Notes under the pieces: generated by a model
Seen by the model: only the letters and a program-made list of their open reading frames with translations
The model's database searches: none
What the model was told of the DNA's origin: nothing
Made by a program: the position numbers and the translations under genes
In this document: piece by piece, positions 15,101 to 25,698 of the stretch
How the letters are laid out: the number at the start of each line of letters is the position of its first letter
Position numbering within the stretch: position 1 is the first letter of the stretch
Assembly: GCA_903925275.1 (NCBI GenBank)
Contig: CAIYES010000278.1
Coordinates: 1 to 50,608 of the forward strand
Length of the DNA stretch: 50,608 bases
Source: an uncultured Bacteroidales bacterium
Lineage (GTDB): Bacteria; Bacteroidota; Bacteroidia; Bacteroidales; FEN-979
Direction: 5' to 3'

Positions 15101-16374
15101 CTTCAGGCTCAGCAGCGTTTTCCGTAACTTCCAATACTACCTGGACCGTAGTGTCTGATCAGACCTGGTGCACGGTGACTCCTTCGGGCACAGGAAACGG
15201 AACCATCACGGCATCCTATGCAGAGAACACTACAACGGTCGCCAGGACAGCAAACATTACCACGACTGTAGCATCTCTGGCCCCTGTCGTGGTTACTGTA
15301 ACCCAGGCTGCGGCTCCTTCTCTGAGTGTTGTCCCGCCTCAGCAAGCTGTTTCTTATACACCTGCAGGGTCGGTAACTTATGCGGTTACTTCGAATACAG
15401 CATGGGTGGTTAGCAGCAATGCAAGCTGGTGTACCGTGACCCCGCCCTCTTCATCAGGGAATGGCACCATAACGGCTGCATATACTGTGAATCCCGACAT
15501 TATCACACGCACGGCCAGCATCACCGCTACAGCAACAGGTCTGGCGCCGGTTATAGTGACATTGATCCAGGATCCGGCAGCACCCAGCATTTCAGTTCAA
15601 CCAGCAAATCAGACTGTACCGTCAGCACCACCATCATACACCAATTTCAGTGTAGTCTCAAATACAAGCTGGACCGTTGTTTCCGATCAAACATGGTGTA
15701 CCGTGAATTCTTCCGGTACAGGTAACGGAACGATCACGGCAACCTATACTCAAAATTTAGCCACCACCGACCGTGTTGCAAATATTACAGCAACGGCTTT
15801 GAACGCGCCACCTGTTGTTGTCACGGTGACCCAGGCAGGAACCATTCCAACCTTATCGGTAAGTCCACCAAACCGTGATGTTACCTATCTTTCGGGCGTT
15901 ACAACATTCACCGTTACTTCGAATTCCCCATGGAGTGCAGTGAGTGATTCTTCCTGGCTTACCGTTACTTCTTCAGGTGTTGGGAATGGTACGCTAGATG
16001 CCAATTATGCAGCAAATCCCTATCATTGGAGCAGGTTGGCAACTGTAACGGTATCTGTGACCGGAATTTCGCCACAAACTGTTACTGTAACCCAGGCCCC
16101 GTTATCCGTTTCAATTCATGAAACTTCTGCAAGTGCAATTCAATTAATTCCCAATCCAACCAAAGGTACTTTCCGGATTGAAACAGGAGAATTGAAATAC
16201 AAATCACTTGAGGTGGCCATCATGGATTTAAGTGGAAGAACATTAACAACAAGGGTAATTCATGAAAAATCGGACCTCCGGTTTGATATTTCAAATTTTC
16301 CGCAAGGATCATATCTGGTAAAGATTAAACAGGATAATGTATCAACGACCCAAAAACTGATTCTGAATCAGTAA
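12151..16374 (+). CDS. Giant T9SS cargo protein with five BACON domains
   Basis: A 1407-residue secreted protein. I chose ATG 12151 because it opens a clear signal peptide (MRKIPLFLLVLLFSINTVFGQ); the frame extends 38 codons further up without sense. Residues 40-515 form a region with the PPDTHGDVGPNHYFQ motif and a beta-propeller look, of a widespread but uncharacterised secreted family. Two Fn3-like modules follow (about 520-715), then an anchor-J/MAM-like jelly-roll (718-880). Five BACON domains (882-1318) each carry SNTSW and W-C-TV-x-PSGTGNGTI signatures. The type A T9SS sorting domain is at 1327-1407 (LIPNPTKGTFRI to QKLILNQ). BACON domains are linked to carbohydrate or mucin binding. 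It lies 100 bases after the other T9SS gene and may be co-transcribed with it. Confidence 0.88.
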   Translation: MRKIPLFLLVLLFSINTVFGQDDVSKPIVQSPVYFDVSPPLRDMVARLPKKAETSWKDGIVKNRFNIKPRTQGQAPGGLTDPSLQTTNGMIMTDTTIANFEGNSNTEGYSPPDTHGDVGPNHYFQTVNCHYSIYSKTGTLLLGPLPNNSVFAGMPNNSNDGDAVVLYDEQADRWFFSQFSLPNYPAGPFFQMIAISATGDPTGSWYRYQYSFTNMPDYPKFGVWPDAYYMSMHMFTATAGAYAGIGAVAYNRTLMLAGTPSATMIMFTKPASNEAYGWLPSDCDGPFPTGNPPNYYLYSIGGGTPHLGIYEFHVDWATPANSSYANYLALTINTYTANITGIRQPNTSVKVDPLNDRMMYRLQYRSFAGYAVMVCNQTIDISTTIAGIRWYELRKTTGAWSLYQQATYAPSDNNSRWMGSIAMDSSGNIALGYSVSGTATYPSIRYTGRKKNDALNQMTIAERGIINGGGSQTEATYHRWGDYSALSCDPIERGTYWYTNQYYTSTASSAWKTRIASFKWNNPPTVVTTEATGITCTGATLNGSVNPNGAPTNYHFEWGTSTAYGFNTTTTAAGSSYAITNVAAPLASLTAGTTYHFRLVAVSADGTSNGNDMTFIPCVAAVVTNTPTAITMTTATSGGTVTAEGGSPVTARGVCWSTSINPTTANSHTTDGSGLGTFTSFLTGLTANTLYHVRAYATNANGTYYGIDLTFRTQCVASTLPFSEGFAAASIPDCWSQVDHQGNGQTWQFGVISSQTPLPNLTGNYAFLNSGGYGAGFTQNADLVSPVIDCSTFGNVTLQFNHYFKAYTGTSGTLSYTNNGGTTWTTIQTFTTTSATNPATFSMVIPGVAGYAQVMFRWNYTGTNGYSWAFDDVSVTGTSTNTLSVAPANQNVPATPTGSTAFTVTSNTSWNASSNQSWCTVNPSGTGNGTITATYTLNTLVTPRVATITVTASGAPTSTVTVTQLGATPTLSVTPGNQSVPYTPSGSAAFSVTSNTTWTVVSDQTWCTVTPSGTGNGTITASYAENTTTVARTANITTTVASLAPVVVTVTQAAAPSLSVVPPQQAVSYTPAGSVTYAVTSNTAWVVSSNASWCTVTPPSSSGNGTITAAYTVNPDIITRTASITATATGLAPVIVTLIQDPAAPSISVQPANQTVPSAPPSYTNFSVVSNTSWTVVSDQTWCTVNSSGTGNGTITATYTQNLATTDRVANITATALNAPPVVVTVTQAGTIPTLSVSPPNRDVTYLSGVTTFTVTSNSPWSAVSDSSWLTVTSSGVGNGTLDANYAANPYHWSRLATVTVSVTGISPQTVTVTQAPLSVSIHETSASAIQLIPNPTKGTFRIETGELKYKSLEVAIMDLSGRTLTTRVIHEKSDLRFDISNFPQGSYLVKIKQDNVSTTQKLILNQ
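14797..16113 (+). repeat. Five in-frame tandem repeats encoding BACON domains
   Basis: Units start at 14797, 15061, 15322, 15589 and 15853, giving periods of 264, 261, 267 and 264 bases, each encoding about 88 residues. Units 1, 2 and 4 are the most alike (shared TWCTV, GTGNGTITA and VTVTQ blocks), while unit 5 has diverged most. The pattern indicates intragenic duplication; copy number may vary between strains. Confidence 0.85.
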
Positions 16375-16413: not shown

Positions 16414-16456
16414 GGCTGCTGCCGTAATTTCGATTGTTCCGGCAGCAGCCTTTTTT
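16414..16456 (+). terminator. Strong rho-independent terminator after T9SS gene
   Basis: GGCTGCTGCC (16414-16423) and GGCAGCAGCC (16441-16450) form a perfect ten-base GC-rich stem with a 17-base loop, followed by six T. It lies 40 bases after the stop codon. A smaller hairpin, GCAGGA-aata-TCCTGC at 16391-16406, precedes it. The following stretch to 16655 shows no gene. Confidence 0.85.
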
Positions 16457-16687: not shown

Positions 16688-16709
16688 ATGAAATTTGAAC
16701 AAGATCAAC

Positions 16710-16907
16710 ATGGAATACCCAAAAACACCTTCATCTGATTCATCCAGATTTCCATGCCATACAGAAGAACTGCTTAAAAGGGAGCATCTGGAACCAGAGA
16801 AGCAACATCGTGATGAAGAAACAATAGCAGAAAGGAAAGACCCAATTTCTTTACAAGGTAAACCTTTTATCCATGAAAAATCAACCTACAGCGTTTTTTT
16901 GTTTTAA
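16710..16907 (+). CDS. Small leader ORF ahead of cheW
   Basis: ATG 16710 opens a 65-codon frame (the frame also has an ATG at 16695). The product is hydrophilic and rich in Glu, Lys and His, with no recognisable domain. It overlaps the CheW start by 35 bases in another frame and sits immediately behind the predicted transcription start. It could be a real small protein, a translational-coupling leader, or chance. Confidence 0.3.
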   Translation: MEYPKTPSSDSSRFPCHTEELLKREHLEPEKQHRDEETIAERKDPISLQGKPFIHEKSTYSVFLF

Positions 16908-17346
16908 AATTGATAACCAGTCACTTGCCATTCCACTATTGACTGTTGAAAGGGTTCTAATGGCAACGGAGGTGTTGGAAGTTCCTGAAGCGCCTCCTGT
17001 AATACATGGAATTATTGATTTTCATGGCCTGATAATACCTGTAATAAACCTTCGGTACAGATTGAAATTACCCTTATTCCCTATTAGAATAAACGACATT
17101 TTTATTATTGTGGAAACCTCTAAACGTAAGATTGCTGTGGTAGCCGATTCGGCAAATGGTGTGATTGTTCACGTCGAAACCGATCTGGTACGCGCTGAGG
17201 ATGTTGATCCGGGTTTTAAGTCAGAAGGCATGCTCCGACGCGATGACGGAATTGTTTTGATTTATGATATCGAGAAGTTTTTATCTGAACAGGATGAGGC
17301 CGGAGTGCAGATTGCGATTGATAAACAAGTTCAGGATAAAAAGTAG
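16873..17346 (+). CDS. cheW: CheW-like coupling protein (WspB-like position)
   Basis: The 157-residue CheW-domain adaptor links receptor signalling tips to the CheA-type kinase. It starts FFCFKIDNQSLAIPLLTVERVL, typical of the first CheW subdomain, followed by IHGIIDFHGLIIPVINLRYRL, the conserved segment that contacts kinase and receptor. A third stretch, IAVVADSANGVI, matches the second SH3-like half. First established gene of the chemosensory operon, with only three bases to cheR. A second CheW (18833) is present, as in Wsp and other alternative-function chemosensory systems. Confidence 0.9.
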   Translation: MKNQPTAFFCFKIDNQSLAIPLLTVERVLMATEVLEVPEAPPVIHGIIDFHGLIIPVINLRYRLKLPLFPIRINDIFIIVETSKRKIAVVADSANGVIVHVETDLVRAEDVDPGFKSEGMLRRDDGIVLIYDIEKFLSEQDEAGVQIAIDKQVQDKK

Positions 17347-17349
17347 CTT

Positions 17350-18843
17350 ATGCTTCCTGAGTCGACATTAAATAAACTAAGTCACGTTGTAGCTGATCAA
17401 CTGGGGCTGAATTTTCCTCCAAACAGGTGGGTTGACCTTGAACGGGGAATTTTATCAGCTGCCAGGGAGCTCGGCATTAAGGAAACAATTCCTGCTGTCA
17501 CAGAATGGTTGTCAGGCGCCAATTTGACTTCGGAAGAATTTAGTGTTTTGGCTACATTCCTGACGGTTGGAGAAACTTACTTTTTTCGTGAGCCGGCAGG
17601 ATTTGAAATATTCCGGACAACGATTATTCCAGAATTAATCAGGGAGCGACAGTGTGGCGACCAGTACCTGAAAATTTGGAGTGCCGGGTGCTGTACGGGG
17701 GAGGAACCCTATACGATTGCGATGCTTCTGAAAGAGCTCCTGCCGGATTTACAAAATTGGAAGATTACGATCCTTGCAACAGATATAAACCGCAATTTTT
17801 TGAAAAAAGCCCAAACCGGCATTTTTAGTCCATGGTCTTTTCGTGAAACCCCCATGGAAGTTAAGAATAAATATTTTTCGCCTTCAGGAAAAAACTGGGA
17901 GATCAACCCTGATCTAAAGAAGATGATCTCTTTTGAAATCCTTAACCTTGCAGATGACCTTTACCCGTCAATGCTGACAAACACCCAAAACATAGATGTA
18001 ATCTTTTGCAGGAATGTACTGATGTATTTCAAACCTGCACAGGTCGGGCAGGTGGCACACAGGTTTTTTCAATCACTGGCGGAAAAGGGTTGGCTGTTGA
18101 CCAGTGCGGTGGAACTGAATGATGAATATTTCAGTGACTTTGCCGTTCTGAAATATAACCAGGGTATCTTTTACCGGAAGGTTCCAAAGGACGACAATAT
18201 TATACATTCACCGCGCGTAAATATGGCGGCCGGGAATTCTGTCAATTCCGGAAAACCTGCTCCATCGCTGAAAGTTAAACCAGCACAGTCAGTGCCACGC
18301 CTGTCATCACCAGTGCCTTCCAGGCCAAAAGCAACAACAACAAACCTTCTGTCGACCGGTGAAGTTCGCGATCTTTTTGAGAAGGGGCAATATCACCAGT
18401 GTGCGCAACAATGCATCCGGTTGCTTGAAAAAAAATCTTCGGATATTGATGTGTTTACATTGCTGGTTAAATCTTACGCCAATTCAGGGAACCTGGCAGA
18501 AGCGCGAAGGTGGGGAGACAAATTGCTTCTTCAGGACGGAGCAACTGCTGACTCTTATTGTCTTGTAGCAACTATCATGATTGAGAAAAACGAGACATCA
18601 ATGGCTGAATCAATCCTAAAACGGGCGCTTTTCATGGATCAGAATCATGTACTGGCCCATTTTCTGATGGGAAATTTATCTCTGCGAAACGGGAACAGGC
18701 GCACCGCTGTAAAACATTTTAAAAATGTGAGGGACCTTTTATCGGCATTTCCCGGAAATGACATCGTGACTGGTTTTGAAGGATTGACTGCCGACAGAAT
18801 AATTGAAATTACAGAGACTCTAATTATGACCAATGAAAAATGA
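17350..18843 (+). CDS. cheR: CheR methyltransferase with C-terminal TPR region (WspC-like)
   Basis: The 497-residue CheR-type protein methylates glutamates of the receptor using S-adenosylmethionine. It has a helical CheR N-terminal domain (about 1-75) and the ETYFFREPAGFE motif. The SAM-binding loop SAGCCTGEEPY is at 111-121, and the DVIFCRNVLMYF motif completes the methyltransferase (to about 280). After a Pro/Ser-rich linker (285-335) come TPR-like helices (about 340-490). CheR fused to TPRs is characteristic of WspC and related alternative systems rather than flagellar CheR. The end overlaps the next gene by 11 bases, implying coupled translation. Confidence 0.92.
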   Translation: MLPESTLNKLSHVVADQLGLNFPPNRWVDLERGILSAARELGIKETIPAVTEWLSGANLTSEEFSVLATFLTVGETYFFREPAGFEIFRTTIIPELIRERQCGDQYLKIWSAGCCTGEEPYTIAMLLKELLPDLQNWKITILATDINRNFLKKAQTGIFSPWSFRETPMEVKNKYFSPSGKNWEINPDLKKMISFEILNLADDLYPSMLTNTQNIDVIFCRNVLMYFKPAQVGQVAHRFFQSLAEKGWLLTSAVELNDEYFSDFAVLKYNQGIFYRKVPKDDNIIHSPRVNMAAGNSVNSGKPAPSLKVKPAQSVPRLSSPVPSRPKATTTNLLSTGEVRDLFEKGQYHQCAQQCIRLLEKKSSDIDVFTLLVKSYANSGNLAEARRWGDKLLLQDGATADSYCLVATIMIEKNETSMAESILKRALFMDQNHVLAHFLMGNLSLRNGNRRTAVKHFKNVRDLLSAFPGNDIVTGFEGLTADRIIEITETLIMTNEK

Positions 18844-19345
18844 CCAGGTTATTCTCAGGGAGCGTGCAAAAAGGGTTGCAGGCCATAAAACGGAGACAGA
18901 AAAAATGGGAAAACCCATATTGGTGGTTGAATTTCTGCTGATCCCCGAAAAATATTGTATTGACAGTTCTTTTATCTCGGAAGTTCTACCGGTTAAAGAG
19001 ATAACTGTTATTCCAGGGACGCCTGATTTTGTAGTCGGTGTAATGAATATGCGTGGAAAAATTATCTCGGTCATTAACATTAGGGATTTCTTTAACCTGA
19101 GGGACAAAGGCATTTCGGAACTGAATAAAATAATTGTTCTCAACCATAACCAGATAGAATTTGGTATACTTGCAGATTCGATCACTGGAACCAGGGAAAT
19201 CGATGCGGACAAGCTGAGTATACCGCCGGTAACCGTAACCGGAACAGGATCCGGATATATCAAAGGAATAACCGCTGATGGTCATATCCTGCTTGATGCC
19301 GCTGCCATCCTTACAAGCAAAATGATCATCGTCAATCAAAAATAA
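18833..19345 (+). CDS. cheW: Second CheW-like coupling protein (WspD-like position)
   Basis: A 170-residue CheW-domain protein with an N-terminal extension, [16 protein letters not shown], of the kind seen in WspD-like CheW proteins. The core shows [21 protein letters not shown], then [21 protein letters not shown], the canonical CheW interaction strand, and [14 protein letters not shown]. Start overlaps cheR by 11 bases. Two CheW proteins in one operon may serve different contacts in the receptor array or stoichiometric tuning. Confidence 0.92.
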
Positions 19346-19360
19346 ACAAATATTTCATAA

Positions 19361-19366
19361 AGGAGG
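19361..19366 (+). promoter_or_regulatory. Perfect Shine-Dalgarno ahead of the MCP gene
   Basis: AGGAGG lies eight bases before the ATG at 19375, within AAAGGAGGAAACAGCA. Bacteroidota genes mostly lack Shine-Dalgarno sequences, and its operon neighbours do not show one this good. It fixes the start and suggests that the receptor is translated at a high, independent rate. Confidence 0.75.
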
Positions 19367-19374
19367 AAACAGCA

Positions 19375-20868
19375 ATGAAATCAATATCATCGTTAAGTAC
19401 CCGCAACAAGCTTTTTCTTGGGTTCGGACTCATCATCCTGGCAATCATCGTCACGGTGTTTGTGTCATACCTGAGCAGCACCCACAGCAACAGCGCCCAA
19501 GGTCAGATGATCAGGTCGTTTGAGCTAAGCCGGTCGCTTACCCAGGTCCGGTCAGATGAAAACCGGATTCGCTCATTAATCCTTGAAATGATTATGTCTC
19601 GGGAGAAGTCAATGAAAGACACATTGCAACAAGAAATCGCGGTTCAGGTTGAGGAAATTGAAACCCGTTGTACCTCAATTGAACAGAGCCTGCAGGATTT
19701 GCCAAAAGAATTGCAGCAATTCGGTGAAATAAGAAAGATGATGGGGATCTACCGTGAGAACCGGAAGGCTCAGATCAGCATGATTCAGGTGGGGAAGGTG
19801 GATGATGCGGCTGCCCTTTCATTGAATGTTCAGAAACCTCTTTATGAAAACATCCGGTTACGGATTCTGGCTCTTGAGAAGGACCTTGACATCCGGGACA
19901 AGGAGATCATCAGCCATTTCAATTTACTCGTAAAAACTGATTTTTATATCCTGATCGGCATAGGAACCGGTATGGTAATTCTCTCGTTGATCATTATTGT
20001 GTGGATGTTCAGAATGCTGAGAAAAATATTTTCCGAGATCAGAAGTGGTGTAAACATCCTTGGGACATCAGTTGCCGAAATACTTACTACGGTCACGGAA
20101 GTGTTCACCAGCGCAGCTGAAACGGCAACCTCTATATCTGAAACAGCCACCACTGTTGAGGAAATTCGCCAGACAGCCATGCTCGCTACCCAAAAGGCGC
20201 AAACGGTTCTGACAAACTCTCAACAGGCTTCAGAGGCTGCAGAAAACGGGAAGGAATCAGTTTTGCAAACCATTGAAGGGATGAAAAAAATCGACCAGCA
20301 AATGAACCTGATTGCTGAAACGGTGGTAAAGCTTTCAGAGCAAAACCGGTCGATAGGCGAAATAACGTCGACGGTTAACGACATTGCCGATCAATCCAAC
20401 CTGCTGGCGGTCAATGCCGCCATCGAAGCTGCAAAAGCCGGAGAACATGGAAGGGGGTTTGCGGTGGTTGCCCAGGAGATCCGCAGTTTGTCAGAACAAT
20501 CCAAGCAGGCCACCGCACAGGTCAAGCAAATTTTAAATGATATACAAAAAGCCGTAAATCAAGCCGTAATGGCAACAGAGCAGGGGGCCAAAGCAGTCGA
20601 AAATGGCAGCAATCTGGCCATGCAGAGCGGCGAGATGATCGAAACCCTTGCAGAGACTGTGAATGAAGCGGCAAAGTCGGTGATCCAGATATCTGCCTCT
20701 ATTCAGCAGCAAATGGCTGCTATGGACCAGATTGTTCCTGCCCTGGAGAATATAAAACAAGCCAGCGAACAAAATGTTGTTGGTACCAAACAGACTCAGA
20801 CTGCCGCAAACGGGCTCAACGATCTGGGACTAAATTTGAAAAACATTATAGAAAAGTTTACTCTTTAG
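19375..20868 (+). CDS. Methyl-accepting chemotaxis protein (WspA-like receptor)
   Basis: Membrane receptor of 497 residues. TM1 is at about 12-33, a roughly 150-residue helical periplasmic region (four-helix-bundle type) follows, and TM2 is at about 187-212. The cytoplasmic signalling coiled coil runs to the end, with the hairpin tip [21 protein letters not shown] and [12 protein letters not shown]. Heptad-repeat Ala/Ser/Thr/Glu-rich helices flank it and would carry methylation sites for the operon's CheR and CheB. I see no clear HAMP domain between TM2 and the signalling helices, only a short Ser/Thr/Ala-rich link, unlike WspA. No C-terminal CheR-docking pentapeptide is apparent. The ligand is unknown. 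Confidence 0.92.
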
Positions 20869-20876
20869 GTAATGTC

Positions 20877-23069
20877 ATGGACAGAAAACAAGAAGCCTTT
20901 CTGCTTGAATTGCTTGCTGAATTTAAGATTGAAGCAGCCGAACACCATCAGGCCATCATAAGTGGCTTGCTGGAGCTTGAAAAGAGCCCTGCCCCACCTG
21001 CTCTGAAAACCTTGATCGAAACTGTATTTCGTGAGATTCACAGCATGAAAGGAGCTGCAAGGGCAGTAAATCAAGGTGAAATCGAACGGCTTTGCCAGGC
21101 GATGGAGAGTGTTTTTCACCTTGCAAAACAGGGCACACTCACACTTTCGGCGTCAATGTACGATATACTGTATAAGGTGGTTGATACCCTCGGGGTGTTG
21201 TTGTCAGAAATTGATGCAAGTGAAAAAAGCATAGGAGCAAACAGAATAGTGCAACTTACAAAGCAAATTGAAGTAATTCTGAATACCCGGGATTTGAAAG
21301 GCGAAGAGCCTGCATCAAACACATTGCCTGTTGTGGATGCCGGAACAAAAGAGAAAACTGCCGGACCTTCTGCCAAACCCATTCCAATGCCGGTTTTTGA
21401 AACGCCGGTGCATCCGGTTCTGTTGGGGAAGGTTGAAAAACCTTTATCACCGGACACTGTGAGGATTTCAACAGCAAAATTAGGCGTGTTGTTACGCGAA
21501 GCGGAGGAGTTTATTTCAGCCAAGGCGACGCTCGGTTACCTTATCAATGAGGTTGCAAAAAAGAGGGACAAGGAAATGCAACCGGTGGTTAAGGAGATGG
21601 AGCAGTTTCACCGGTCGATGGCACGAATGATCGACGATCATTTAATCGATATTAAAACCACGCTGCTTAGCCCCTTTTCCACAATCCTGGAAATTATTCC
21701 GAAAATTGTACGCGATCTTGAAAAGGCATTTGACAAGCAGGTCGTTCTTACAATACAGGGAGAAGAAATTGAAATAGACAGGAGGATTCTGGAAGAGATG
21801 AAAGATCCGTTAATTCATCTCATCCGCAATTGCGTAGATCATGGACTGGAAACCCCGGATACACGTAAAAGAGCGGGAAAAGCGACAGCAGGAAGCCTGA
21901 TGATCACGATCACAAAATTGTCAGGCCTGGATGTCGAATTGCATATCAGGGATGACGGCGCAGGGATCAACAGGGCAAGTGTGCTTCAATCAGCCATTAA
22001 AATGGGAATGGTGACCAGTGAATCCGCGCTTCAAATGACCGACCAAGAGATTTTTCCGTTGATTTTCAGATCAGGAATATCCACGAGTTCGTTTATAACA
22101 GATATTTCCGGGAGAGGTCTCGGCATGGCCATTGTTGCTGAAAAAATCGCGAAACTCGGGGGCAGCATTTCTGTCGATTCATCCCATGGGCAGGGAACTT
22201 CATTTAACATCTCCCTGCCTGTTACGCTTGCTACTTTCCGTGGCATCCTGGTCCGGGTAAACGAACAAATGTTCATCATCCCGACAACAGCCGTGGAAAA
22301 GGCGATCAGGGTGCGGAAGGAGGAGGTGAAATCAGTTGAGACAAAACAGATTATTATTTACAATGGTGAAAGCCTTGCCCTGGTTAGGGTTGGAGATGTG
22401 CTTGGAATTCCTGAACGGAAATCAAAGCTGGAAAATATGCTGCCGATGCCGGTATTAATTCTTGCAATGGTGCAGAAACGAATTGCCTTTGTGGTCGATG
22501 AAGTGCTTGGCGAGCATGAAGGCATGGTGAAAACCCTGGGCCCCCAGTTGGCTCACATCCGTAACATTTCAGGAGCAACTATTCTTGGCAATGGCCGGAT
22601 TATACCTATTCTCAACATACCGGAACTCATGGAGTCTGCGGCGCAGGTGAGGCAAACCCTTGCGGAAGCTGAGACTGACAACTACGAAGGGACTCGCGAA
22701 GCCAGGGAGAGGTATATTCTCGTTGCCGAAGATTCAATTACGTTACGTGCCCTGCTTAGAAATATTATCGAATCAGCCGGATATATCGTAAAGACAGCAG
22801 TTGACGGGATGGAAGCTTTCCAGTTTTTGAAAAATGAAACCTTCGATTTGGTGGTGTCAGATGTGGAGATGCCCCGGATGAATGGTTTTGATCTGACTGT
22901 CAGAATCAGAGATGATAAACGGCTTTCTGAATTGCCCGTTATCCTTGTAACGGCGCTTGATTCTCCTGATGATCGCCAGCGGGGCATGGAGGCTGGCGCC
23001 AATGCTTATATTGTTAAAAGCAGTTTTGAACAAAGTAACCTGCTGGAAATGATAAAACGACTTTTATGA
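20877..23069 (+). CDS. cheA: Hybrid CheA kinase with C-terminal receiver (WspE-like)
   Basis: A 730-residue chemosensory kinase. The N-terminal Hpt domain carries the phospho-acceptor in REIHSMKGAARAVN (His55). After a linker and dimerisation helices comes HATPase_c (N box LIRNCVDHGLE, then DDGAGIN and GRGLGMAIV). A CheW-like regulatory domain (about 455-590) includes FIIPTTAVEKAIRV and FVVDEVLGEHEGMVK. The C-terminal receiver (about 612-730) has its acceptor Asp in VVSDVEMPRMNG (Asp662). No P2 domain is evident. The Hpt-ATPase-CheW-REC order is that of WspE and other alternative-function kinases; the built-in receiver may act as phosphate sink or relay. Starts eight bases after the receptor gene. 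Confidence 0.93.
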   Translation: MDRKQEAFLLELLAEFKIEAAEHHQAIISGLLELEKSPAPPALKTLIETVFREIHSMKGAARAVNQGEIERLCQAMESVFHLAKQGTLTLSASMYDILYKVVDTLGVLLSEIDASEKSIGANRIVQLTKQIEVILNTRDLKGEEPASNTLPVVDAGTKEKTAGPSAKPIPMPVFETPVHPVLLGKVEKPLSPDTVRISTAKLGVLLREAEEFISAKATLGYLINEVAKKRDKEMQPVVKEMEQFHRSMARMIDDHLIDIKTTLLSPFSTILEIIPKIVRDLEKAFDKQVVLTIQGEEIEIDRRILEEMKDPLIHLIRNCVDHGLETPDTRKRAGKATAGSLMITITKLSGLDVELHIRDDGAGINRASVLQSAIKMGMVTSESALQMTDQEIFPLIFRSGISTSSFITDISGRGLGMAIVAEKIAKLGGSISVDSSHGQGTSFNISLPVTLATFRGILVRVNEQMFIIPTTAVEKAIRVRKEEVKSVETKQIIIYNGESLALVRVGDVLGIPERKSKLENMLPMPVLILAMVQKRIAFVVDEVLGEHEGMVKTLGPQLAHIRNISGATILGNGRIIPILNIPELMESAAQVRQTLAEAETDNYEGTREARERYILVAEDSITLRALLRNIIESAGYIVKTAVDGMEAFQFLKNETFDLVVSDVEMPRMNGFDLTVRIRDDKRLSELPVILVTALDSPDDRQRGMEAGANAYIVKSSFEQSNLLEMIKRLL

Positions 23070-23146
23070 TTTAAGAGTCACTATTTTAATGAGAATCTTA
23101 ACTATATAGTTTTATTCCTGCTTTAATCGTAATTAATAACATTGAT

Positions 23147-23242
23147 ATGAAAGGTGCCATAGCCAATTGTTTAAAAGAGATGGTTGTTTCAAGATTTGGA
23201 CAATCCACATGGGAAGAAATACTGAAAAATTTCGGCGACTAA
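23147..23242 (+). pseudogene. Remnant of a haem-NO-binding (H-NOX) gene
   Basis: ATG 23147 opens 31 codons beginning MKGAIANCLKEMVVSRFGQ and continuing STWEEILKNFGD before TAA. This closely resembles the first helices of H-NOX/HNOB domains (consensus MKG-x-I-x-N-x-x-x-x-x-V-x-x-x-FG-x-x-x-W-x-x-x-L). The haem-ligating His, about 70 residues further on, is absent. After the stop a different frame gives FL and the same frame gives PVAQDDCFLWSSFW, weakly recalling the FLP-x-QDVDD stretch of the family, so the body may have decayed by frameshifts. It occupies the only large gap (268 bases) in an otherwise tightly packed operon. The first 31 residues are persuasive; the rest is guesswork. Confidence 0.6.
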
Positions 23243-23337
23243 AGTAGAAATAACCTTCCTGTAGCCCAGGATGATTGTTTTTTATGGAGTTCCTTTTGGC
23301 AGACCGGACAAGGTATTTTGCAATAAAATGAATATCA

Positions 23338-24423
23338 ATGGTTAACAATAAGAAAATTCGGGTTTTAATTGTTGAGGATACGCTTGTTGGACAGAGTTTG
23401 TTAAAAGGTCTGCTCGCGGAGGATCAGAGGTTTGAGGTGGTCGGAGTGGCCCTTAATGGACGGCAGGCTGTCGAATTCGTTGCCTCCTTGGGTCCTGATG
23501 TTGTAAGTATGGATATTTACATGCCTGTCATGGATGGGGTGGAGGCAACCCGGTTGATTATGGAGTCAACTCCCGTCCCGATAGTCATTGTCAGCAGTTT
23601 TTACAATCCGTCCGAAATTAAAATGTCCTTCAGCATCCTGGAGGCTGGCGCCCTGACCATTCTTCCGAGGCCCTTTGGCCCGGGTCACCCTCAGTTTACG
23701 AAAACTGCGAGAAACTACAGGAACACACTGAAAATGATGTCGGAAGTCAAAGTCGCTCCTCGACGCAAAGTCGCAAGAAACTCTGGCAGCACTCGGCCAC
23801 GGGGCTCGGATGAAACGCATGCCGGGCAGATTTCAACGGTCGCTGATTATTCTCAAAGTAAAATCATTGCAATAGGGGCATCCGCAGGCGGTCCCCAGGT
23901 TATCCAGTCAATCCTGCAGGAACTGCCAAATAGTATCCCGGTTCCGGTTTTGATCGTTCAGCATATTGATACCCATTTTGCCGAGGGTTATGTTGACTGG
24001 CTTAATTCGACTTCAAATTTGCCGGTTCATATTGCCACGAATGGGGAACTCATGCTTCCTGGCCATGTTTATTTCCCTCCGGGAGACCATCACCTGGGAT
24101 TGCAGCGCGAAGACATCATCGCTGTTACACGGAATCCTCCTGAAAAAGGATTAAGGCCGGCGGTTGGTTACCTGTTTAACAATGTCAACCTGGTTTATGG
24201 AAAGCATTCTGTTTGTATCCTGCTATCCGGGATGGGCGTAGATGGTGCCAGGGAATTAAAAATGTTGCACGATTCGGGGGCCTTAACTATTGTCCAGGAT
24301 GCTCAATCTGCCCTTGTTTACGGAATGCCCGGGGAAGCGATCAGATTGGGTGGAGCAGTCAAAGTTCTGCCTCCCGGTGATATTGTAAAAGAAATTGTAC
24401 AAATTTTCACTATTTTAAAATAA
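23338..24423 (+). CDS. cheB: CheB methylesterase/deamidase (WspF-like)
   Basis: The 361-residue protein-glutamate methylesterase reverses CheR modification of the receptor. Receiver domain at 5-125, acceptor Asp in VSMDIYMPVMDG (Asp59). A basic linker (about 130-170) leads to the catalytic CheB domain with Ser in IAIGASAGGPQ, His in IVQHIDTHFAEGY and Asp in SGMGVDGARELK. Receiver phosphorylation by the CheA homologue would activate esterase activity and provide adaptation feedback. Separated from cheA by 268 bases that hold the H-NOX remnant; six bases to the next gene. Confidence 0.94.
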   Translation: MVNNKKIRVLIVEDTLVGQSLLKGLLAEDQRFEVVGVALNGRQAVEFVASLGPDVVSMDIYMPVMDGVEATRLIMESTPVPIVIVSSFYNPSEIKMSFSILEAGALTILPRPFGPGHPQFTKTARNYRNTLKMMSEVKVAPRRKVARNSGSTRPRGSDETHAGQISTVADYSQSKIIAIGASAGGPQVIQSILQELPNSIPVPVLIVQHIDTHFAEGYVDWLNSTSNLPVHIATNGELMLPGHVYFPPGDHHLGLQREDIIAVTRNPPEKGLRPAVGYLFNNVNLVYGKHSVCILLSGMGVDGARELKMLHDSGALTIVQDAQSALVYGMPGEAIRLGGAVKVLPPGDIVKEIVQIFTILK

Positions 24424-24429
24424 CTGGTT

Positions 24430-25698
24430 ATGCAGACATCCTATCAGATTTCGTTGGGCAATGGTTATATCATGGCTGTTGAGGATTCAAGGGTTCAGGC
24501 CAAAAAACTTAAGAATCTTTTTGACAGTAATAATCTGAACAACAAAATGTACAGCAATGCAGACGATGCATATACTGCTGCATTGGAACGGGCACCGGTA
24601 CTGGTAATCAGTGATATCGTGATGCCCGGAATGGACGGATATGAATTCTGCTACAAACTCAAATCCCATCCGACTTTAAAAGATGTCCCTGTCATTCTGC
24701 TGACCTCGTTAAGGGATCCCCTCGATATTATTAAAGGATTGCAGTCGGGTGCCGATAATTTTATCACCAAGCCTTATGAGGAGCAATACCTGTTATCGAG
24801 AATTCATTACCTGCTCGCCAACCGTGACCTTAGGGCAGGAGGTTCTGCGGAAATGGTCATTGAAATCATATTCCGGGGTGAAAAGTTTAAGATAAATTCT
24901 GAAAAGAAGCAGATATTGGACCTGCTTTTATCTGTTTATGAAGCTGCTGTGGAACGGAACGACCAGCTGACATCAACCCAGGCAGAGCTCATGGCTGCCA
25001 ATGAAAACCTGGTGTCTGCAAACCAGCAGCTGGAGGCATTTTCGTCCATGGTATCCCACGATTTGCGTTCTCCTTTGAATATTGTGGCAGGATACACTCA
25101 CCTTCTTCAGGAGGAGTATGCTGATGCTCTAAATGATGAGGCAAAAGAGTTCCTTGCCAGGATAAATAAGTCTGCTTATGCAATGTCCAAACTAATTGAT
25201 GATTTACTTCAATTTTCACATTCTGCAAAAATAGAAATCAAGACCGAATTTGTTGACCTCAGTGATATAGCCCGGAATGTTGTAAAAGAATATATTGAAC
25301 AGGAGAAGGAACATAAGGCTGACTTCCATATAGAGAATGGCCTTATAATCCTTGCTGACCCTGACCTGATGCATGTTGTGCTTAATAATCTGCTTGGCAA
25401 TGCCTGGAAATATTCCGGTAAAGTGGATCATCCCATCATTACTTTTGGTAAAACAGTCTCAGAAAGGGAAATTGTTTTTTTTATAAAGGATAACGGTGCC
25501 GGGTTTGACATGTCAAAAGCAACAACCCTGTTCACTCCGTTCCAACGCTTTCATACCAGCAAGGAGTTTGCCGGAACAGGAATTGGATTAGCTACCGTGC
25601 ACAGGATTATTGAAAGGCATGGAGGCCGCATATGGGCAGAATCGGAACCGGGAAAGGGCGCAACCTTCTTTTTTTCGATCAGTAATAAATGGCAATGA
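24430..25698 (+). CDS. Receiver-histidine kinase output protein (in the WspR position)
   Basis: A 422-residue soluble protein. The N-terminal receiver (about 15-135) has its acceptor Asp in LVISDIVMPGMDG (Asp62) and Lys in FITKPYEE. A linker with the INSEKKQILDLLLSVYEAAVERN helix leads to a coiled coil (175-200). HisKA follows with SMVSHDLRSPLN (His210), then HATPase_c (NNLLGNAWKYSG, DNGAGFD, GTGIGLATV). It is probably phosphorylated on its receiver by the CheA-type kinase and then controls its own kinase activity, passing the signal to an unlinked regulator. The last gene of the operon, where Wsp systems usually have a diguanylate cyclase; no GGDEF or EAL motif is present. Confidence 0.92.
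   Translation: MQTSYQISLGNGYIMAVEDSRVQAKKLKNLFDSNNLNNKMYSNADDAYTAALERAPVLVISDIVMPGMDGYEFCYKLKSHPTLKDVPVILLTSLRDPLDIIKGLQSGADNFITKPYEEQYLLSRIHYLLANRDLRAGGSAEMVIEIIFRGEKFKINSEKKQILDLLLSVYEAAVERNDQLTSTQAELMAANENLVSANQQLEAFSSMVSHDLRSPLNIVAGYTHLLQEEYADALNDEAKEFLARINKSAYAMSKLIDDLLQFSHSAKIEIKTEFVDLSDIARNVVKEYIEQEKEHKADFHIENGLIILADPDLMHVVLNNLLGNAWKYSGKVDHPIITFGKTVSEREIVFFIKDNGAGFDMSKATTLFTPFQRFHTSKEFAGTGIGLATVHRIIERHGGRIWAESEPGKGATFFFSISNKWQ

Follow-up and report, generated by a model that had tools for sequence, protein, structure and literature searches.

The window analysed here is a stretch of 50,608 bases that makes up the whole of one contig (G000:C278) from an uncultured Bacteroidales bacterium, whose genome assembly amounts to 5.65 Mb in 574 contigs and is 94.9% complete. 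We describe in it a chemosensory operon of seven same-strand genes at 16873-25698, which Pfam identifies in order as CheW, CheR-TPR, CheW, methyl-accepting chemotaxis protein (MCP), CheA with a receiver (REC), CheB and a REC-histidine kinase, the last of which carries between receiver and kinase a module that we call LINK (Table 1). All seven genes are confirmed as real and intact, being full length with their motifs preserved, and the parts list given in a first-pass annotation of this DNA is borne out by Pfam. The tight, co-oriented block proposed there is also correct as to strand and packing, except that 268 bp separate cheA from cheB and that the start assigned to it, 16710, is an ATG of another frame (open reading frame 16695-16907), the true start of the first gene being 16873. 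The hairpin upstream separates the operon from the preceding gene, which ends at 16374; an automated hairpin scan did not list it because its loop exceeds the limit of the scan.

Table 1. Features of the operon and its borders (positions in the window)
Feature	Position	Strand	Evidence and remarks
Terminator-like hairpin	16414..16450	+	11-bp stem, 15-nt loop, six T; read by eye
CheW 1	16873..17346	+	Pfam CheW E 1.2e-21
CheR methyltransferase, C-terminal TPR-like region	17350..18843	+	Pfam CheR E 2.2e-47; TPR_19 E 4e-4
CheW 2	18833..19345	+	Pfam CheW E 1.7e-27
MCP, 4HB_MCP_1 sensor	19375..20868	+	Pfam MCPsignal E 1.8e-39, 4HB_MCP_1 E 1.7e-12
CheA, C-terminal receiver	20877..23069	+	Pfam Hpt, HATPase, CheW, REC
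H-NOX/HNOB N-terminus-like fragment	23147..23242	+	31 codons, then stop; Pfam HNOB E 3.7e-4
CheB methylesterase with receiver	23338..24423	+	Pfam CheB_methylest E 8.1e-55, Response_reg E 1.4e-16
Terminal effector, REC (Asp62)-LINK-HisKA (His210)-HATPase	24430..25698	+	Pfam, alignments, structure model
LINK module	24817..25038	+	Residues 130-203; predicted beta-hairpin 144-148/151-155, then start of helix 159-229

The TPR_19 match of CheR falls under the curated Pfam cut-off (21.1 versus 25 bits), and the TPR-like tail was matched in the corresponding CheR region of relatives. Pfam found no HAMP domain in the MCP of the window, and among the MCPs of six relatives HAMP was matched in 0/6 and the 4HB sensor in 4/6. 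The CheA likewise gave no Pfam match to a P2 domain; its His55 and Asp662 are invariant in alignments with 15 relatives, and His210 of the terminal effector is invariant among the 7 closest sequences. Genome searches at this level of completeness place all three CheW domains and the only MCP within the operon, and they returned no match to FlhA or to GGDEF in the window's genome. The FlhA result agrees with the earlier remark that no flagellar gene lies nearby. A GGDEF regulator consistently encoded just outside the operon in relatives had been named as a finding that would undo the first reading; since GGDEF is not matched anywhere in the genome, a hidden partner of this type is unlikely. The same searches gave a second, diverged CheB-like match elsewhere in the genome (G000:C157:2256-3293; E 1.1e-22 at 25% identity, reading across three stops).

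The operon arrangement is not due to chance, as it recurs in two sets of related loci. A close CheA match (E 8.6e-74 or better, a family threshold placed at a gap visible in the data, with the next match at 1.2e-67) is present in 15/295 genomes of the same order, and the 14 other than the window's own contributed 15 order loci. For the named loci, only the best 80 were kept out of 527 confirmed CheA-relative candidates, so that their proportions are not a census; many are from metagenome-assembled genomes (MAGs), and many incomplete orders are cut by contig ends. Order loci L073, L081 and L082 also stand among the named loci or have close matches there (L096, L131, L135). The same gene order, sought among these relatives, was found as CheW-CheR-CheW-MCP(s)-CheA-CheB in 11/15 order loci, some of the others being cut by contig ends, and as CheW-CheR-CheW-MCP-CheA in 41/80 named loci, 34/80 when CheB is included and 30/80 when an adjoining LINK effector is included as well. 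Past cheB, the first gene with a label encodes a REC-LINK-kinase in 12/15 order loci and 29/80 named loci, and a GGDEF effector directly follows cheB in 0/15 order loci. CheB served less well than CheA as a probe for relatives: it matched in 56/396 genomes of the class, mostly through the catalytic domain only, and its better loci (L086-L094) are other chemotaxis clusters.

By record title, the named loci come from Bacteroidota, Ignavibacteriota, Chlorobiota, Pseudomonadota, Thermodesulfobacteriota, Myxococcota, Nitrospirota, Omnitrophota, Acidobacteriota, Verrucomicrobiota, Planctomycetota, Chloroflexota, Synergistota, Spirochaetota and archaea. The archaeal-titled contigs (L097, L155, L168 and L173; ANME-2, Methanomicrobiales, Methanoculleus) bear the operon together with LINK effectors, which points to transfer or misbinning. 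A MAG contig titled Klebsiella pneumoniae (L103) also bears the operon; it groups with a Methylococcaceae MAG on the CheA tree (support 95) and is probably misbinned. REC-SpoIIE phosphatase proteins lie at or beside the effector place in L080, L081 and L131, a further type of output, and single receivers are encoded 3' of the effector in a few relatives (L082, L080, L097, L100, L111).

LINK is a stretch of ~60 residues directly C-terminal to the receiver, and its conservation in alignments is above that expected of a linker. It gave no meaningful match in Pfam (E up to 10) or NCBIfam (E up to 1), and among PDB sequences (E up to 1) it gave coiled-coil matches only, the best at E 0.016. A 44-row profile, built partly from these same loci, found LINK in 65/80 named loci, and a profile of seven Bacteroidota sequences only found it in 60/80 (E below 1e-5). 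Among the 72 labelled LINK proteins the output is a kinase in 40 and GGDEF in 21, with 11 having no labelled output, some of them cut by contig ends. The 15 named loci without LINK include early-ending contigs (for example L127, L133, L134 and L166), a locus with REC-SpoIIE (L131) and one with a REC-kinase that lacks LINK (L135). Also among these 15 are three deltaproteobacterial MAGs (L142, L150, L158) in which LINK-less REC-GGDEF genes lie between cheA and cheB; a fourth (L172) has such a gene there plus a LINK kinase.

On the sequence evidence, LINK tracks these operons, its occurrence following that of the close CheA. At a LINK threshold of E up to 1e-3, which 16 of the 295 order genomes pass, LINK and close CheA occur together in 13 genomes, LINK only in 3 (G567, G633 and, weakly, G561 with E 9e-4 in a 107-aa open reading frame), CheA only in 2 (G555, G613) and neither in 277 (Fisher 3.7e-18). 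Seven of the 13 co-occurring genomes supplied rows to the profile and six did not, a dependence that leaves the absence elsewhere unaffected. The pattern was the same across 40 genomes from the genus to which Pseudomonas sp. F(2018) belongs: CheA of this family occurs in three (E 5.7e-124 or better), and these three also carry LINK (E 2e-27 or better), which lies on one contig with CheA and within about 3 kb of it; the rest gave weak partial LINK matches in 3 (E 0.006-0.008) and none in 34. One of the three positive genomes (G680) had supplied a profile row. A plasmid search with REC plus LINK matched mostly plain receivers; one hit (H61), on the Alteromonas macleodii plasmid pMIT1002 (L213), is a LINK kinase that stands divergently beside the operon and adjoins an EAL response regulator.

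In an AlphaFold2 model of the window's kinase (mean pLDDT 82.7, pTM 0.52), the hairpin 144-148, 151-155 (pLDDT about 75) is followed by a single helix, 159-229, that bears His210 and runs into HisKA. A model of the REC-LINK-GGDEF protein of L132 has the same order of elements, with a low-confidence hairpin (pLDDT about 50-52; 5-row alignment). We determined the spacing between the LINK Ser and the His for the 37 proteins in which both motifs were recognised. Spacings of 28-70 are multiples of seven in 22/22 proteins (28, 35, 42, 49 or 70; 21 distinct contigs), and the short spacings changed at least five times among 19 rows of the CheA tree. The window's spacing to His210 is 42, so that, by model and spacing, its kinase has the REC-to-DHp helix of heptad length that marks receiver-controlled histidine kinases such as LvrB. 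The heptad register is thus kept when LINK lies near the kinase, but it does not extend to proteins whose inserts are longer.

We consider it an even chance that LINK is an adaptor shared across a large branch of alternative cellular function (ACF) systems, in which a constant receiver-hairpin-helix front end would dock to this CheA branch, outputs (histidine kinase, hybrid kinase, GGDEF, GGDEF-EAL) would have been swapped repeatedly, and kinases would be joined in whole-heptad register. The CheA tree implies at least 8 changes between kinase and GGDEF output, counted over the 65 rows with one clear output and with mixed or unlabelled rows omitted.

For the window itself, we favour, at a probability of roughly 0.7, a single-receptor ACF array that signals to a receiver-controlled histidine kinase as its output: CheA would phosphorylate Asp62 and so switch a kinase acting on a regulator encoded elsewhere. 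The array would consist of one membrane MCP with its four-helix sensor, taking in a presumed signal, two CheW and CheA, with CheR-TPR and CheB adjusting the receptor. CheA would autophosphorylate at His55 and have three acceptors for the phosphoryl group: Asp662 of its own receiver (a likely sink), CheB, and Asp62 in the REC-LINK-kinase. Array activity would in this way set the level of Asp62 phosphorylation. The LINK hairpin and the continuous heptad helix would relay that state into HisKA, switching the kinase core, which in turn would phosphorylate (or dephosphorylate) the distant response regulator. The transfer from CheA to the receiver of a second kinase had been proposed in the first-pass annotation, and it gains support from the invariance of Asp62, along with Lys114, in 18 aligned REC-LINK-kinases and from a Rhodospirillum centenum precedent in the accessible part of PMC3868531.

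Several observations weigh against this interpretation. No response-regulator gene lies 3' of 25698 on the operon strand within the window, and none follows the effector in the nearest related operons. The effectors of two relatives with the same operon, L081 and L082, lack LINK and have SpoIIE or histidine kinase outputs. Longer Ser-His spacings leave the heptads, multiples of seven being found in 1/6 proteins at 74-99 and 1/9 at 187 or more. The two precedents for a receiver-controlled switch, CheA3-CheS3 and LvrB, have opposite signs. Finally, LINK proteins occur without labelled che genes on L208, L209 and L210, two of which are short contigs.

This last observation is what speaks for a reading in which the REC-kinase is not a target of the array at all: its receiver would take the phosphoryl group from the kinase domain of the same protein or from some other kinase, and CheA would serve CheB and an unlinked regulator only. 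We regard this as unlikely, given that the effector gene adjoins cheB and that LINK and this CheA co-occur strongly. Steering of gliding or of surface motility linked to the type IX secretion system, which the first-pass annotation had raised as a possible role, is a little less likely still. SprA is encoded in the genome, flagellar FlhA was not matched there, and Frz in Myxococcus does steer surface movement. However, SprA lies in pieces on contigs other than that of the operon, flanking genes vary among relatives, and no motility gene was seen beside the operon in the relatives' loci listed, where most neighbours lack an identification; we found no evidence for this role. The SprA matches are split between G000:C229 and C501 with one internal stop each, an assembly break or error.

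That the operon might instead be Wsp in a new phylum, or a Wsp of the WspH type, with a kinase directly replacing WspR, is suggested by an identical parts list and by the kinase-ended Wsp of Burkholderia (WspH, as reported in the available portion of PMC8552884). We rejected Wsp membership on synteny, CheA clade and effector. In the Wsp loci L224-L228 (genomes of the Pseudomonas genus and Cupriavidus metallidurans) the order is MCP-CheW-CheR-..-CheA-CheB-REC-GGDEF, with the second CheW unlabelled throughout and the first also unlabelled in L226 and L228; the MCP thus comes first in wspA-wspF synteny, whereas in the window it sits between the second CheW and CheA. LINK gave no match at E up to 10 in WspR of these 5 loci or in the Burkholderia arboris REC-kinase encoded upstream of a wsp-like operon (L231), which is WspH by position. 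The window's output is REC-LINK-histidine kinase rather than WspR (REC-GGDEF) or WspH. A published survey of 794 Wsp systems, 206 of them WspH-ended, records them in beta- and gammaproteobacteria only (PMC8552884, within the text accessible).

Trees separate the two as well. In the CheA tree of 117 rows, Wsp forms one clade (support 100), pilus rows another (99) and flagellar-type rows a third (65), and the window's CheA lies outside the WspE clade in a nine-row Bacteroidota clade (99), all nine effectors of which are REC-LINK-kinases with a spacing of 42. These were quick trees without bootstrap, with 15 rows of flagellar type and 6 of pilus type; the near-identical L073, L081 and L082 and later the long-branch L213, L229 and L171 were dropped, and L163 gave no CheA core. 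WspE had been sought through CheA matches in seven genomes, which returned mostly flagellar and pilus clusters. In the CheR tree Wsp is again one clade (99), and the window groups with the same Bacteroidota operons in a set of seven rows (98), the whole eight-row group not forming one clade. Constraining the window clade with Wsp costs 48 log units at an approximately unbiased (AU) test p of 0.102, which would allow the two to be sisters. The Wsp alternative is nevertheless largely refuted and we think it very improbable, and the first-pass idea of a Wsp-like operon with a swapped output is not supported. Placement of CheA in flagellar clades, one of the outcomes named there as refuting, was not seen: the protein groups with the Bacteroidota ACF operons, apart from flagellar, pilus and Wsp rows.

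The gap between cheA and cheB holds a fragment that is probably a gene remnant. Its HNOB match spans profile positions 1-29 of 163, its genome-wide E is 0.0135, and both matches are below the Pfam cut-off. The cheA-cheB gaps of the nearest relatives, L071 and L095, are 13 and 5 bp, too short to hold an H-NOX gene, so that the fragment looks like a lineage-specific arrival. H-NOX as sensor of the array was rejected, since the 31-codon fragment is below the cut-off and a full H-NOX was not found in a search of the window's own genome. Genes similar to 23S_rRNA_IVP occupy the same gap in two other loci (L076:9459-9746, E 8.3e-8, just below the cut-off; L077:5616-5999, E 2.6e-23), and the gap therefore seems a mere landing place for genes. 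That the truncated H-NOX-like start marks an operon in decay is barely credible, with seven full-length che genes, intact motifs and a fragment that appears to have arrived in this lineage only.

Compared with known systems, the operon is, judging from its sequence, of the ACF kind and not Wsp. It combines CheA, CheW and MCP with a multidomain regulator (REC-HisKA-HATPase), it has a CheR with a TPR region that is below the Pfam cut-off but common to relatives, and its CheA falls outside the flagellar and pilus classes in the trees. A CheA-REC without P2 is typical of the ACF class (PMC10782961, in its accessible portion), and the ACF clusters with CheR-TPR described in PMC3447774 resemble the window in CheR-TPR, CheA-REC without P2 and a multidomain response regulator; about 40% of the response regulators there bear a kinase module. 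As far as the available text of that paper goes, its phyla exclude Bacteroidetes and no common linker is described, in contrast to the window.

A kinase as target of the array has precedents in CheA3-CheS3, Burkholderia WspH and the regulators of CheR-TPR clusters. In the part of PMC3868531 available, the Che3 cluster of R. centenum groups CheA-REC, two CheW, one MCP, CheR, CheB and a receiver-kinase, as the window does; in vitro, a CheA3 with its own receiver disabled phosphorylates the REC1 domain of the kinase CheS3, and this is thought to turn CheS3 off. The window has a CheA-REC and a receiver-kinase in one cluster, with its catalytic motifs all present, and would follow the same logic of CheA-REC as donor and sink and REC-kinase as target, but CheS3 is a REC-REC-PAS-HWE kinase and its cluster includes CheY3, a linked output that the window lacks. 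Burkholderia WspH, which leaves cyclic di-GMP (c-di-GMP) unaffected, shares with the window a receiver-kinase effector in place of a diguanylate cyclase, and differs in the wsp gene order, the upstream effector gene and the lack of LINK (L231); the accessible account of the published survey confines WspH-ended Wsp to Burkholderia (PMC8552884). Leptospira LvrB, the best Foldseek match of the window's kinase model (8vc9, E 1.3e-20), has a comparable REC-signalling helix-DHp-CA layout and heptad preference of the REC-DHp linker, and is reported to be turned on by receiver phosphorylation through coiled-coil formation with heptad-length linkers (PMC13269768). Unlike the window's kinase, it is not chemosensory, its helix extends straight from receiver alpha5, and no hairpin module is reported in the portion of PMC13269768 available.

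Kinase-ended chemosensory operons were thus known before, and neither the Bacteroidota branch nor the common LINK module was found in the literature searched, where subscription papers were mostly out of reach. By its sequence, LINK allows such effectors, orphans included, to be recognised and classified, and the heptad rule makes the control of a kinase by a receiver directly testable. Having a single receptor and lacking GGDEF, the window's genome would provide a simple model in Bacteroidota for the wiring of a chemosensory array to a two-component system. The closest counterparts of the front end are operons of Pseudomonas and Burkholderiales (L153, L154, L156, L161, L101, L108), which have the CheW-CheR-CheW-MCP-CheA-CheB order and REC-LINK of the window but end in a c-di-GMP enzyme, GGDEF(-EAL), the EAL label being rough because it came from a single query that also matched CheB and others. 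What is new here is therefore not the kind of operon but a LINK module common to kinase-ended and c-di-GMP-ended operons of one gene order.

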